Shown here in pieces: positions 15,537 to 31,707 of a stretch of DNA of 47,534 nucleotides. Made by a program: the position numbers and the translations under genes. Source of the DNA: Fusobacteriota bacterium (GTDB lineage: Bacteria > Fusobacteriota > Fusobacteriia > JAPLKR01). Where the stretch lies: contig JAPLKR010000025.1 in the NCBI GenBank assembly GCA_026387965.1, forward strand, positions 1 to 47,534, given 5' to 3'. The notes below the pieces were generated by a model. That model was given only the letters and a program-made list of their open reading frames with translations, ran no database searches and was not told the DNA's origin. How positions within the stretch are numbered: position 1 is the first letter of the stretch; each line of letters starts with the position of its first letter.

Positions 15537-16580
15537 CTACTCACTCCATTTTCGAAGAATTGCACGCACAGGGCTGCCATCACCATCTTCAATTTTTAGA
15601 GGAAGTGCAATCAACTCATAAACACCTTCTGAAACATTTTCTAAATCAAGGCCTTCTAATGCTCTCATATCGTATTTTGCAATTGCATGGTGTGCACTAA
15701 ATCCAGTCTTTTCATTGTCAACACTTGGTGTATCAACACCTATCAAAACAACATCTTTAAAATAGAGATATTCAATTGCTTCACGTGAAAGAGCGACAAA
15801 GCTATTTTCAAATTTTTCTTTATTGAGTGCACTATTGGTTTTAAGTAAAATTCTTGGTGCATGAACATAGTATTGCTTTAATATCTCAACTGAAATAATA
15901 CCATTCTTTAAGGATTCATCACTAATGTCTAAAACTTGCGCTTTACCAATATAAAAATTCAAACTATCATTTTCAAAGCTATTTTTACACTTCATAAAAT
16001 GCGAACGCGAATCTACATGTGCCCCTAAATGCAGTGCCGTCTCAACACTAGAAAGATTTAACATGTCACCCTTTTCCATACTACTTGAAACAATTCTTTT
16101 AAAAGGTACATCTGTTGGGTATACTGCCGTTCTTTCACTGATGGTCGGTGTTATGTCAAACAGAATTTCCTGTTTACTATTTTGTAAAAAATCATGTGCA
16201 TCTCTCAAAATATTCATAGCGCTCATATATGTTAAAAGCGAAATAGCTTCTTTATATGAAACCCATTTTATTTCAAGAACCTCCTCAACTTGAACTTTAA
16301 TGTCATCGCTTAAAGCTTTTGCAAGAAAAAAAGTAACAGTTTTATTTGAATTTGCTTTAGGGGAATACTGTACTCTACGACTAAAGTCAGGCATTAAATC
16401 AACTTTCAATCCAGTTTCTTCATAAATTTCCCTTTTGGCCGCAGTAATATTTGATTCTCCTTCCTCTAAATGTCCTTTTGGAAAATCCCAATGCCCACCA
16501 TTTTTATGTATTATGACTAAATATACAATAATAGTTTTTAAACGATATACTACTGCTCCTGCAGAATACTCTATTTTCAT
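15537..16580 (-). CDS. NUDIX hydrolase fused to kynurenine formamidase-like cyclase
   Basis: This 347-residue protein has two domains. Residues 1 to about 138 are a NUDIX hydrolase close to Ap4A hydrolases: P-K-G-H-L-E-E-G-E then K-R-E-I-Y-E-E-T-G-L fit the box G-x5-E-x7-R-E-U-x-E-E-x-G-U. Residues about 142-347 are a KynB-type cyclase/arylformamidase. H-L-G-A-H-V-D-S-R-S-H-F supplies the metal-binding His/Asp set (family H-x-G-T-H-x-D-x-P-x-H), followed by G-V-D-T-P-S-V-D, A-H-H, Y-E-L-I-A-L-P-L-K and S-P-V-R-A. Start is ATG 16580 with AGGGGAATTG before it; an upstream TTG is unlikely. It lies 8 bases after hsp20. No other kynurenine-pathway gene is nearby, so the amide substrate is uncertain. 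Confidence 0.85.
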   Translation of the reverse strand: MKIEYSAGAVVYRLKTIIVYLVIIHKNGGHWDFPKGHLEEGESNITAAKREIYEETGLKVDLMPDFSRRVQYSPKANSNKTVTFFLAKALSDDIKVQVEEVLEIKWVSYKEAISLLTYMSAMNILRDAHDFLQNSKQEILFDITPTISERTAVYPTDVPFKRIVSSSMEKGDMLNLSSVETALHLGAHVDSRSHFMKCKNSFENDSLNFYIGKAQVLDISDESLKNGIISVEILKQYYVHAPRILLKTNSALNKEKFENSFVALSREAIEYLYFKDVVLIGVDTPSVDNEKTGFSAHHAIAKYDMRALEGLDLENVSEGVYELIALPLKIEDGDGSPVRAILRKWSE

Positions 16581-16588
16581 CAATTCCC

Positions 16589-27144: not shown

Positions 27145-28026
27145 TTAGGTTTTAACATGCCGCTTTTGAAACTGATTTAAAAACTCTATCTTTGAACTGC
27201 TCCAAATTGGTGCAATCAAACATCTTTTGTCGGGATCACTGCTCAATCGGTGTACCACTATATCGGCTTCTATTGTTTCTATACTTTGAATAAGAATTTT
27301 CATGTAGTGCTCTTCACTCAAGAGTTCAAAAGGTGAACTCTCATACAAAGTGGCAAGTGCCGTTCCTTTTGCTACATAAAAATGGTGAAATTTCACCCCC
27401 CATATTTTTTGTGAATTGAGAAAACGAACGCTCTCAAGCATCTCCTCTCTGCTCTCTCCTGGTATCCCAAAAATCAAGTGGGCCACTACCTCTATTCCCC
27501 TAGTTTTTAAACTATTTACAGCCCATTTAAATATTTCGATAGAGTACCCTATTTCAAGCCACTCTCTACTTTTAGTGTGGATGCTTTGAAGCCCAATCTC
27601 AATGTAAACAAATATCTTTTTACTTAGTTCTTCAAGTACGCCTAAAATATCTTCATGAATACAATCAGCTCGTGTTCCAATTGAAATCGCTACAATCTCT
27701 TCAAATTCGAGCAAACTCACATAACTGCTTTCAAGATATGCAACATCACCATAGGTATTAGAAAAGTTTTGAAAGTAGGCTACAAATTTTTTAGCCTTAG
27801 GATGTTTTCGCTTCACTCTCTTGATTTGGAGTTGTACTTGCTCGTGAAGAGTCCCACAGTTTAAAAAATCTCCACTCCCATTTTCACTACAAAATATACA
27901 CCCCTTAGTTGAGAGCGTCCCATCACGATTAGGACACGTTGCATATAGAGTAAGAGACAATTTATGAACTTTTTCTCCAAATCTCTCTTTAAAAAAGCTG
28001 TTCAAATCCAAATATCCCTTATCCAT
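27145..28026 (-). CDS. Radical SAM protein, TIGR01212/YhcC family
   Basis: This 293-residue protein carries the 4Fe-4S/SAM cluster motif in T-C-P-N-R-D-G-T-L-S-T-K-G-C-I-F-C near residue 30; the long first spacer is typical of the YhcC family. Later motifs are E-I-G-L-Q-S-I-H and H-L-I-F-G-I-P-G-E. Related proteins are thought to act in RNA or protein modification; the exact reaction is unknown. ATG 28026 overlaps the stop of the upstream HD gene as TAATG; a GTG at 28035 is an alternative start. The two genes form an operon. Confidence 0.88.
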   Translation of the reverse strand: MDKGYLDLNSFFKERFGEKVHKLSLTLYATCPNRDGTLSTKGCIFCSENGSGDFLNCGTLHEQVQLQIKRVKRKHPKAKKFVAYFQNFSNTYGDVAYLESSYVSLLEFEEIVAISIGTRADCIHEDILGVLEELSKKIFVYIEIGLQSIHTKSREWLEIGYSIEIFKWAVNSLKTRGIEVVAHLIFGIPGESREEMLESVRFLNSQKIWGVKFHHFYVAKGTALATLYESSPFELLSEEHYMKILIQSIETIEADIVVHRLSSDPDKRCLIAPIWSSSKIEFLNQFQKRHVKT

Positions 28027-28655
28027 TATACCCACTCACTTATAAAATTATCTAAAAATTGGCGTAAAAAGGCATCCTTCTCTATTGCTAATGCTCGCCC
28101 ACTTTCACTGTTCATCAGCGTCTTAACTTTTAATAGTTTTTCATAAAAATGATTAATAGTTGTTCCTTCAACTGCTTTAATATAAGCTAAATACGACTCT
28201 TCACTCTCAAATTTTTGTGGAAGCTTTTTAGGATTGTGCATCTCTTCTCCAAAATGTCCCGCATAATAAAAAGCCCGTGCTATCCCTATTGCTCCAATGC
28301 TATCGAGTCTATCTGAATCTTGAACAATTTTACCCTCCAGAGTTCTGAGTGGCTTAGAATGCCCTCCTTTAAATGAGATATTTTCAAGATCGAAAATGAT
28401 CTCTTCACACTCTGAAATGCTAAATTTTGTTGATATTAGTTCTAAAACTTCTCTCTTAGCACGCTCTTTTTGCTCTACAAATTTATAGTCAAGTGCTTCA
28501 TGTAGCCATGCCATCACTGCAATTTTATTAATGCTTCCACCTTCTTTTTTAGCAAGTTTTCTAGAGAGTAGTTCGACCCTTTGTATATGGTCAAGACCAT
28601 GACCACTTTTGTCACTTTGCATTTTACTTGTTGCATAGTGAATAATCTTTTTCAT
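28026..28655 (-). CDS. HD-superfamily phosphohydrolase with HE in place of HD
   Basis: This 209-residue protein starts at ATG 28655 with GAGGAG upstream. It has G-H-G-L-D-H-I-Q-R-V with the first metal His, then A-W-L-H-E-A-L-D-Y-K-F where family members normally have L-L-H-D, and the highly conserved I-V-Q-D-S-D-R-L-D-S-I-G-A-I-G-I-A-R. It resembles the YpgQ/YedJ group of nucleotide pyrophosphohydrolases. The central Asp is Glu, a conservative change that may keep metal binding. It is translationally coupled to the radical SAM gene. Confidence 0.82.
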   Translation of the reverse strand: MKKIIHYATSKMQSDKSGHGLDHIQRVELLSRKLAKKEGGSINKIAVMAWLHEALDYKFVEQKERAKREVLELISTKFSISECEEIIFDLENISFKGGHSKPLRTLEGKIVQDSDRLDSIGAIGIARAFYYAGHFGEEMHNPKKLPQKFESEESYLAYIKAVEGTTINHFYEKLLKVKTLMNSESGRALAIEKDAFLRQFLDNFISEWV

Positions 28656-28799
28656 ATTAAACTCCTCATACCTAAAAATTAAACCACACACATGGATGAC
28701 ACTTAAAAACTCTATTGCAAAATAGAAAAGCGAAATATTTTTACCAACATATTTTTGTAAGATTTGTTAAAATTTAGTCCGTGTCGAAAAAATATTATC

Positions 28800-30716
28800 T
28801 TAACCTTTTAATATTTTTAAATGCCCAAGTAGAAGCTTTTTTTCATTCATCTTAGGGTTTTTCCAAACGTACTCCACACACGCCTGAAGTGCTTCTCCTA
28901 TCTCTTTTCCTTGATATGTTTCAACTAAATCACTTCCTGTTAGCGCTAGATCAAAAAGTGTTATTGGCTCTTTCTTCATCAGAATATCCTCAATCATATC
29001 CTCAATTTCACAAAACAGTTTGAAACAGTGAGGCTTTGATTTTCCATAGACGTCTGCTCTAAAAAGATGAAGTAAATTACGATATTTTTCTAGAGATAAC
29101 TCAGAGATTGCCCTTTTGATATCCACTCTCTGATAAGCTCTCCACGACGAGTGATATCTAATATACTCCATACTCTCTTTAGCCACTACATTACTTACTT
29201 TAAGGCGCGCAAATATTACTTCACTCATTTTTGCACTTAACTCGGCATGTCCCGAGTATTTTGCAAATCCATCCTCTCTCATCACCTGACAATGGGGCTT
29301 TGAAATATCGTGAAGCAGTGCAGAGAGTCGAAGCGGCAAATGCACTGGGGTATGCTCTACAACGGCAAAAATATGTTCGTGAAGTTCATAACATTGGTGT
29401 TTTGCACGCTGATTAAATCCTATACAAGCATTAAATTCTGGAATTATAATGGATAAAACACCGCTTTCACATAGTAGTTCTAACCCTCTTCTCACATTAT
29501 TACTGAGTAGTATCTTAAAAAACTCAATAGCAACCCTTTCGCTTGAAAGGGTTGCTATCCCCTCTTTTAATACTTTCATCGCTTCAAGGGTATTCTCTTC
29601 AATCTCAAATTTCAACTCCGTAGCATGACGTAGACCTCTAAGTATTCGTAAATAATCCTCTTGAAAACGGAGTTTTGGTTCTCCTACTGCCACAATTTTC
29701 CCCTCAAGCAAAGCACTCACACCTTGATATGGGTCCACGAGTCCCTCTTTTAAGTTGTAGGCAAAAGCATTCATGGTAAAATCTCTACGAGATAAATCTT
29801 CAACAATATCACTTACAAACTCAATATTCTTAGGATGTCTCCCATCTAATATTCCCCACTCTTTCCTATATCTAGCTATATCAAAGAGATAATCCCCCAT
29901 TTTTATTTGAACAATTTCGAAGGATTTTCCTACAATAATTGGATGATACGCTTCAAATATTTCACATATTTCAGCGCTTGAAAGAGTGGTTGCAAAATCA
30001 TAATCCCTAGGTGAAATATTTAAAAGTAAATCTCTGACACTTCCTCCCACCACATACCCCGTGCCCTTTAAATTAAGTTTTTCGAGTACGTACTCAACTT
30101 CAGATGGCAAAACTATCCTCTCAAGCTTTGAGTATAAACAACCGCAATAATCTTGTCGATATACATTATACTCTTTTGAGAGTTCTACACTCGCTCTAAA
30201 TCCGTTTTGTTTTTTAAAATCCGCTACGAGAAATTTCACCCCGTAAATCTTTTCAAAATGCCGCCCCAATTCATTAATCCATTTAGAATTTTTATGAGGA
30301 CTTACCGAAATAGATGTTGAAAAGTACTCATACCCACGTGCCTTCGCTTTTTTCGCGCTCTCTCGAAGTCGAATAGCAAAGCACCTCTTACAGCGGGGTC
30401 CACCCTCTCTCTCTTCACTATGGATACGTGTAATTTGATTAAACTCTTTTGGGTCGAAGGGGGCTACTATGACATTTTCCTTATATCCCCTTCCTTTAAC
30501 ATACTTTTCAACTGCTTCAGAGCGAAGAGAATACTCGCTTTTCGGAAAAATATTCGGATTATAAAAAAATAGTGTCACATCAAAAAGTTCTCTTAATTTT
30601 TCTAGCACTGAGGTTGAACAAGGCGCACAACATACATGTAGAAGCAGTTTGGGTTTGCTCTCTAACCTCTTTATCGATCCCATCGTTTCTATATATTCTT
30701 GATAATCATTTACCAT
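28800..30716 (-). CDS. QueH epoxyqueuosine reductase fused to CCA-adding tRNA nucleotidyltransferase
   Basis: This 638-residue single frame joins two tRNA-maturation enzymes. Residues about 22-200 are QueH: C29-C30-x-x-C33, C109-x-x-C112 in G-G-P-R-C-K-R-C, S-T-S-I-S-V-S-P-H-K, and C191-G-C193. QueH makes queuosine in the anticodon loop of GUN tRNAs. Residues about 208-638 are a class II CCA-adding enzyme: V-V-G-G-S-V-R-D at 222-229, R-D-Y-D-F with the catalytic carboxylates D238 and D240, R-R-D-F-T-M-N-A, R-F-x-E-D-x-L-R-I-L-R, and an HD domain with L-L-H-D-I-S-K-P-H. No stop, frameshift or plausible internal ribosome-binding site separates the parts. AGGAG precedes ATG 30716, which follows the LysR gene by 9 bases. 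Confidence 0.9.
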   Translation of the reverse strand: MVNDYQEYIETMGSIKRLESKPKLLLHVCCAPCSTSVLEKLRELFDVTLFFYNPNIFPKSEYSLRSEAVEKYVKGRGYKENVIVAPFDPKEFNQITRIHSEEREGGPRCKRCFAIRLRESAKKAKARGYEYFSTSISVSPHKNSKWINELGRHFEKIYGVKFLVADFKKQNGFRASVELSKEYNVYRQDYCGCLYSKLERIVLPSEVEYVLEKLNLKGTGYVVGGSVRDLLLNISPRDYDFATTLSSAEICEIFEAYHPIIVGKSFEIVQIKMGDYLFDIARYRKEWGILDGRHPKNIEFVSDIVEDLSRRDFTMNAFAYNLKEGLVDPYQGVSALLEGKIVAVGEPKLRFQEDYLRILRGLRHATELKFEIEENTLEAMKVLKEGIATLSSERVAIEFFKILLSNNVRRGLELLCESGVLSIIIPEFNACIGFNQRAKHQCYELHEHIFAVVEHTPVHLPLRLSALLHDISKPHCQVMREDGFAKYSGHAELSAKMSEVIFARLKVSNVVAKESMEYIRYHSSWRAYQRVDIKRAISELSLEKYRNLLHLFRADVYGKSKPHCFKLFCEIEDMIEDILMKKEPITLFDLALTGSDLVETYQGKEIGEALQACVEYVWKNPKMNEKKLLLGHLKILKG

Positions 30717-30725
30717 TGTTATCTC

Positions 30726-31598
30726 CTAATACTCAACTTTATACTTATCTAAAAAGTGTAAAAAGAGCTTCAATTCACGCGCCGACTCCTTTTCACTGCA
30801 ATAAACCACCTGATAACCTACTTGATACTCCTTTAAATCCACCAACGATTTCAGCTCTCCAAGAGCAATTTCTCGTGCTACACAGTGAAATGGAAGTATC
30901 GCAAATCCGAGTCCTTCTTTCACGAGATTTTTGACTGTTTCAATGCTTCCTTTTACTACCATTTTCTTATTTAGATGAATTTTATGTTCTACTTCAATGT
31001 AACTTTTACATTTATCTTGAAGAATACTGTCATCTCGACCTATTAAAGTAAATGCTTCTAGCTTTTTCAGATCATCAATCTCATTTTTAGAAACTAAAAC
31101 ATAAGGGTAATCAGCTATTTTTTTTACTGTAAGTATTGGGTTTGAAATCGTAAATTCTCCCATAAGTAAAATATCAATTTCTCCAAATAGAAGCATTTTT
31201 ATCGCAATATCTCTTTCCAACACATGAATTTCAAACTCTATCTGTTGATGCTTTCTAGAAAATTCACTAATGAGTTTAGGCAAAATGGGTTCCCCTACCA
31301 TATGTGTTGCTCCAACAATGATTTTGGCATGATTATTTTTTATCACACGTTCAATTTCATCTTCTGCACGGCTTACTTTTTCAAATATTTCGCGCGCTAG
31401 AGTGAATAGTCTTTCCCCTGTATACGTCAGTTGAATTTGCTTTGCCTCGCGGTTGATAAGTTGGGTCTTCAGTTCGCCTTCAAGTTTTTTAATTTGTATT
31501 GAAACTGCAGATTGATTAATAAAAAGCTTCTCTCCAGCTTTTGTAAAACTCTTCTCTTTAGCCACTTCATAGAATATTTTTAAATAGTGCAGATCCAT
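30726..31598 (-). CDS. LysR-family transcriptional regulator
   Basis: This 290-residue protein starts at ATG 31598 (M-D-L-H-Y-L-K-I-F-Y-E-V-A) with AAGGAG upstream. The winged HTH covers residues 1-60 (S-F-T-K-A-G-E-K-L-F-I-N-Q-S-A-V-S-I-Q-I), followed by a linker helix and a periplasmic-binding-like effector domain (I-I-V-G-A-T-H at about 92). It is divergent from amt-glnK across a 228-base gap and runs into the QueH-CCA gene. By family habit it would regulate the divergent genes, perhaps ammonium uptake, but this is inference. Confidence 0.9.
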   Translation of the reverse strand: MDLHYLKIFYEVAKEKSFTKAGEKLFINQSAVSIQIKKLEGELKTQLINREAKQIQLTYTGERLFTLAREIFEKVSRAEDEIERVIKNNHAKIIVGATHMVGEPILPKLISEFSRKHQQIEFEIHVLERDIAIKMLLFGEIDILLMGEFTISNPILTVKKIADYPYVLVSKNEIDDLKKLEAFTLIGRDDSILQDKCKSYIEVEHKIHLNKKMVVKGSIETVKNLVKEGLGFAILPFHCVAREIALGELKSLVDLKEYQVGYQVVYCSEKESARELKLFLHFLDKYKVEY

Positions 31599-31707
31599 AA
31601 TACTCCTTAAGTTATAATATTTACCACAGGAACACAAAGTACAGTGACTCTCAATATTCAGAATTTTATGGTCTTCAAATTGATTATATTTTCCTAACCT
31701 TATTATA

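Follow-up and report, generated by a model that had tools for sequence, protein, structure and literature searches.

A single reading frame uniting QueH and a CCA-adding enzyme in a Fusobacteriota genome

The fused gene and its modules

The window (the whole 47,534-nucleotide stretch of DNA that was analysed) carries on its minus strand a frame of 638 codons, uninterrupted by a stop, that runs from an ATG at 30716 to a stop ending at 28800. Its N-terminal part is a QueH module and its C-terminal part a CCA-adding nucleotidyltransferase module, and the gene order around it is lysR, queH-cca, HD phosphohydrolase, mnmL:

30726..31637, minus strand: gene for a LysR-type regulator, upstream of queH-cca and ending 9 nt ahead of it
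30723..30727, minus strand: AGGAG, Shine-Dalgarno sequence of the queH-cca gene
28800..30716, minus strand: fused queH-cca gene, 638 aa (open reading frame and Pfam)
30117..30716, minus strand: QueH module, residues 1-200, with C29, C30, C33, C109, C112, C191 and C193 (Pfam, PDB match, alignment and invariant columns)
28803..30116, minus strand: class II CCA-adding nucleotidyltransferase module with HD domain, residues 201-638 (Pfam, NCBIfam, PDB, alignment and invariant columns)
28026..28691, minus strand: HD phosphohydrolase gene, downstream of queH-cca (Pfam/NCBIfam)
27145..28035, minus strand: mnmL/ytqA, for a radical SAM tRNA wobble-uridine modification protein, downstream of queH-cca (TIGR01212, E 4.9e-83)

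The QueH module is complete. The Pfam QueH profile (PF02677) matches residues 24-197 over profile positions 1-173 of 175 (E 1.9e-62, 210.9 bits against a cut-off of 23.5), 27 of the 28 columns that are near-invariant among 82 QueH sequences are kept, and so are all seven conserved metal-binding cysteines. In a sequence search of the PDB, residues 24-206 match QueH entry 7lc5 (E 1.3e-38), which, like 7lc7, is the QueH of Thermotoga maritima. The CC, RCxxC and CGC cysteines are common to the two proteins; the T. maritima enzyme, however, is a stand-alone chain of 192 residues, whereas the QueH of the window carries a C-terminal nucleotidyltransferase.

The C-terminal module is matched by the Pfam PolyA_pol head domain at residues 221-341 (E 3e-29, 102.4 bits against a cut-off of 23) and by the PolyA_pol_RNAbd region at residues 370-430 (E 5.6e-17, 61.7 bits against 22). 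The NCBIfam models for CCA tRNA nucleotidyltransferases align over residues 209-430 (E 3.6e-60) and, in the case of the actinobacterial model, over residues 221-615, both below their curated cut-offs; the best of these models scores 204 against a cut-off of 290. An HDIG match at residues 449-513 is weak and likewise below its cut-off (E 3.3e-5), and the metal ligands of the HD domain are kept (H448, H469-D470 and H490), as are the near-invariant H522 and D555. The catalytic DxD (D238 and D240), RRD (R310-D312, with R311 and D312) and EDxxR (E353, D354 and R357) motifs are all present, and 46 of the 49 columns near-invariant among 32 CCA enzymes are retained. Residues 211-422 match PDB entry 1miv (E 9.9e-29), the class II CCA-adding enzyme of Geobacillus stearothermophilus, with which the module shares a head domain and RNA-binding region, the catalytic carboxylates, RRD and EDxxR. 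Unlike 1miv, which is a stand-alone protein of 404 residues, the enzyme of the window also possesses an HD domain and is preceded by QueH at its N terminus. From these PDB sequence matches the folds of both modules can be regarded as secure, and specificity for CCA, as opposed to A-only or poly(A) addition, would follow from homology.

A sequence-only reading of this DNA had described one frame joining a complete QueH to a complete CCA-adding enzyme, and the 638 codons, the Pfam matches and the invariant columns bear this out. The motifs are also where it had placed them, with CCAPC at 29-33, RCKRC at 108-112, CGC at 191-193, GGSVRD at 224-229 and the carboxylates at D238 and D240. At the level of sequence the joining of queH and cca is real, and the in-frame meeting of two full domains is far beyond chance.

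The module boundary and a hairpin

In alignment, the QueH proteins of relatives stop a few to about 25 residues past the CGC motif and their CCA enzymes begin about 22 residues ahead of VGG, so that one module gives way to the other at about residue 200-203 and nothing is inserted between them as a linker. Two candidate translation signals lie at this boundary, and a hairpin lies further into the gene:

30117..30122, minus strand: GAGAGG, candidate Shine-Dalgarno sequence 6 nt before TTG 203, within codons 199-200 (duplex energy)
30108..30110, minus strand: TTG codon 203, in frame, a candidate start within the gene for the CCA module; CCA enzymes that stand alone begin in the region aligned with it
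29527..29558, minus strand: perfect 14-bp hairpin within the CCA coding region, followed after about 4 nt on the sense strand by a U-run

The GAGAGG duplex with the anti-Shine-Dalgarno sequence has an energy of -5.8 kcal/mol, against a median of -6.4 kcal/mol at the gene starts of the window. Only about 8-12% of internal ATG, GTG and TTG codons score as well as TTG 203, and such a start codon is expected by chance at about 0.4% of positions, or at about 4% within five codons either side of the boundary. The pair is thus suggestive of an internal start, and could be due to chance. TTG 203 may be a remnant of an old cca start or a working start that yields free CCA enzyme; its position at the module boundary together with a ribosome-binding site means that the CCA enzyme may also be made alone.

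The hairpin could act as a pause site or a weak terminator. None of 300 synonymous shuffles reached a 14-bp hairpin, and the corresponding place in the cca of relatives pairs over no more than 7 bp. The other seven perfect hairpins of at least 11 bp in the window are at or near gene ends.

Occurrence and likely roles

The set for the phylum comprised 98 genomes, all of one class and including the source genome. The fusion is present in one of the 98, the rest having separate genes, and the QueH-CCA architecture was found in none of the 97 relatives nor in 22 further genomes. It was also absent among the matches listed from two other phyla (398 and 392 genomes), where a fusion would rank at the top because both of its modules score, and where the best scores belong to single modules. 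None of 64 QueH loci of public genome contigs carries it, and the viral contigs searched hold neither QueH nor a CCA enzyme joined to QueH. The fusion is undescribed in the open-access papers searched, and the earlier statement that it was not known as a characterised enzyme agrees with its absence from these papers and from about 900 other genomes. Whether the pair is confined to one lineage had been proposed as a check; the fusion was seen in a single genome, and there is thus no sign of conservation of the joined form or of selection on it. From the sequences compared, QueH-CCA is a new domain pairing and a singleton.

The source genome is a draft of 1.79 Mb in 141 contigs, estimated to be 95.5% complete. 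Its one QueH and its one PolyA_pol-type enzyme are both in the queH-cca gene, and no second QueH, no QueG and no second nucleotidyltransferase was found in it at this completeness. A search for separate queH and cca genes, which the sequence-only reading had recommended, thus finds the sole copies of both in the fused gene. TGT and QueA are present in one copy each. The protein must therefore supply both activities, since the genome with its TGT and QueA offers no other QueH, no QueG and no other nucleotidyltransferase. With QueG absent, reduction of epoxyqueuosine in tRNA by the QueH module is plausible, and the last step of queuosine synthesis is, on this gene complement, that of the queH-cca protein, provided that queuosine is made from epoxyqueuosine in this organism. 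The tRNA genes recovered (tRNA loci collected with Rfam and analysed with ARAGORN) comprise 30 distinct ones, and every one of them encodes CCA, including those for the four queuosine tRNAs, Asp(GTC), His(GTG), Tyr(GTA) and Asn(GTT). No CCA addition is therefore needed to finish a queuosine tRNA, and the CCA module is expected to serve in repair; on the evidence of the tRNA genes its role is probably repair rather than maturation. In E. coli, the CCA enzyme repairs CCA ends and does not complete newly made tRNAs.

The reading that we favour, with a fair margin of doubt, is that of a genuine fusion between two functional tRNA enzymes, found in one genome, whose domains act independently and which arose by loss of a stop codon. 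Acting after TGT and QueA, the QueH module would carry out the reduction that turns epoxyqueuosine, at position 34 in each of the four GUN tRNAs, into queuosine, and the C-terminal module would repair worn CCA ends on all tRNAs, the two most likely being tethered only by co-expression. Independent activities are favoured because the two modules work on the tRNA at sites far from each other, one at either end, no linker is available to bridge the distance, and the substrates are not the same, being four tRNAs for QueH and all tRNAs for the CCA enzyme. It had been suggested instead that queuosine completion is coupled to 3'-end maturation, perhaps so that only CCA-complete queuosine tRNAs are released. 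The encoding of CCA in every recovered tRNA gene, those of the four queuosine tRNAs included, speaks against such coupling, and this genome gives no hint of a release check. More generally, queuosine tRNAs could be passed between the domains, or be released only with an intact CCA end. Both domains are complete, are sole copies and act on tRNA, and the lack of a linker may place them rigidly with respect to one another. However, CCA repair would concern all tRNAs and QueH only four, no relative conserves the fusion, a start at TTG 203 would separate the activities, and some 75 angstrom separate the anticodon from the 3' end within a single tRNA. Functional coupling is very unlikely, and a tight form of it, for example across a dimer, finds no support in these observations. 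A still more improbable form of it has QueH and CCA acting as a rigid unit, in which one tRNA-binding event, or a dimer, serves to check the 3' end as well as the anticodon base; if true, this would be a new kind of coupling in tRNA quality control.

Two other explanations concern whether the frame exists in the cell and whether all of it is used. Separate queH and cca genes could have been joined through an error of base calling, consensus or assembly that removed a stop. One base change would be enough, the modules adjoin at the very place where two separate genes would have their end and their start, an apparent ribosome-binding site and start for cca survive there, the family is represented by one genome and the assembly is a draft in 141 contigs. 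On the other hand, the reading frames of the two modules match exactly through the join, all 49 genes listed in the window are intact frames, so that the error rate looks low, and a chimeric join in frame and exactly at a domain boundary is improbable. An artefact accordingly seems quite unlikely. Somewhat easier to entertain, though also unlikely, is that only QueH or only the CCA enzyme is made or active, the other module being dispensable or translated from its own internal start. The internal TTG with its Shine-Dalgarno sequence and the strong hairpin within the cca part would fit such an arrangement, and encoded CCA lessens the need for CCA activity. The retention of near-invariant columns in both modules argues that neither is a passenger, as does the lack of a backup gene for either activity. 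If queH-cca is made as one chain, it provides a natural test of whether anticodon-modifying and 3'-end repair enzymes benefit from a shared polypeptide; if its domains act independently, as we favour, it is an oddity of gene arrangement.

Origin and other fusions of either enzyme

In six relatives (G002, G025, G033, G059, G061 and G066), mnmL lies within 6 kb of queH, and in several it is directly adjacent. At L162, L166, L167, L168, L169 and L170, queH and mnmL, each a wobble-base modification gene, occupy a common neighbourhood. In the window, cca and the HD phosphohydrolase gene lie between the two. In trees, both modules sit on long branches that lie close to the rest of the phylum without falling inside it, positions that are as expected for an early-branching, divergent lineage, and there is no sign in these trees of a ready-made fusion having been transferred. 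The simplest history, drawn from gene order in relatives rather than from an intermediate, is that cca arrived immediately behind queH, in a neighbourhood of queH and mnmL, and that the stop between queH and cca was then lost to give a single frame. The old ribosome-binding site and TTG start of cca would persist at the boundary, so that free CCA enzyme may be produced in the cell alongside the fusion.

Each of the two enzymes is also joined to other partners elsewhere. Proteins of about 590-600 aa in which a CCA enzyme is fused to NUDIX are widespread in family f4 of the same class (L066, L067, L069, L072 and L079). Those at the first four loci resemble queH-cca in having an orthologous CCA module, an HD domain and a further fused domain, but in them the extra domain is a C-terminal NUDIX and queH is a separate gene elsewhere. 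QueH, for its part, is joined to Gfo/Idh/MocA proteins at L050, L056, L059, L061 and L063, where, as in the window, an N-terminal QueH is followed directly by a second enzyme domain; there, however, the partner is an oxidoreductase and the phyla differ. These fusions come from Kiritimatiellae and related MAGs, and their QueH parts form one supported clade. The queH-cca gene adds a further case to the CCA-NUDIX and QueH-oxidoreductase proteins, which suggests that both enzymes readily join other domains. Three genomes of the set (G004, G020 and G023) have two class II nucleotidyltransferase genes each, one of them with a NUDIX extension. The window itself encodes, at 15537-16583, a protein with a NUDIX and a Cyclase-family (PF04199) domain, whose NUDIX is at most 43% identical to the CCA-fused NUDIX of family f4.
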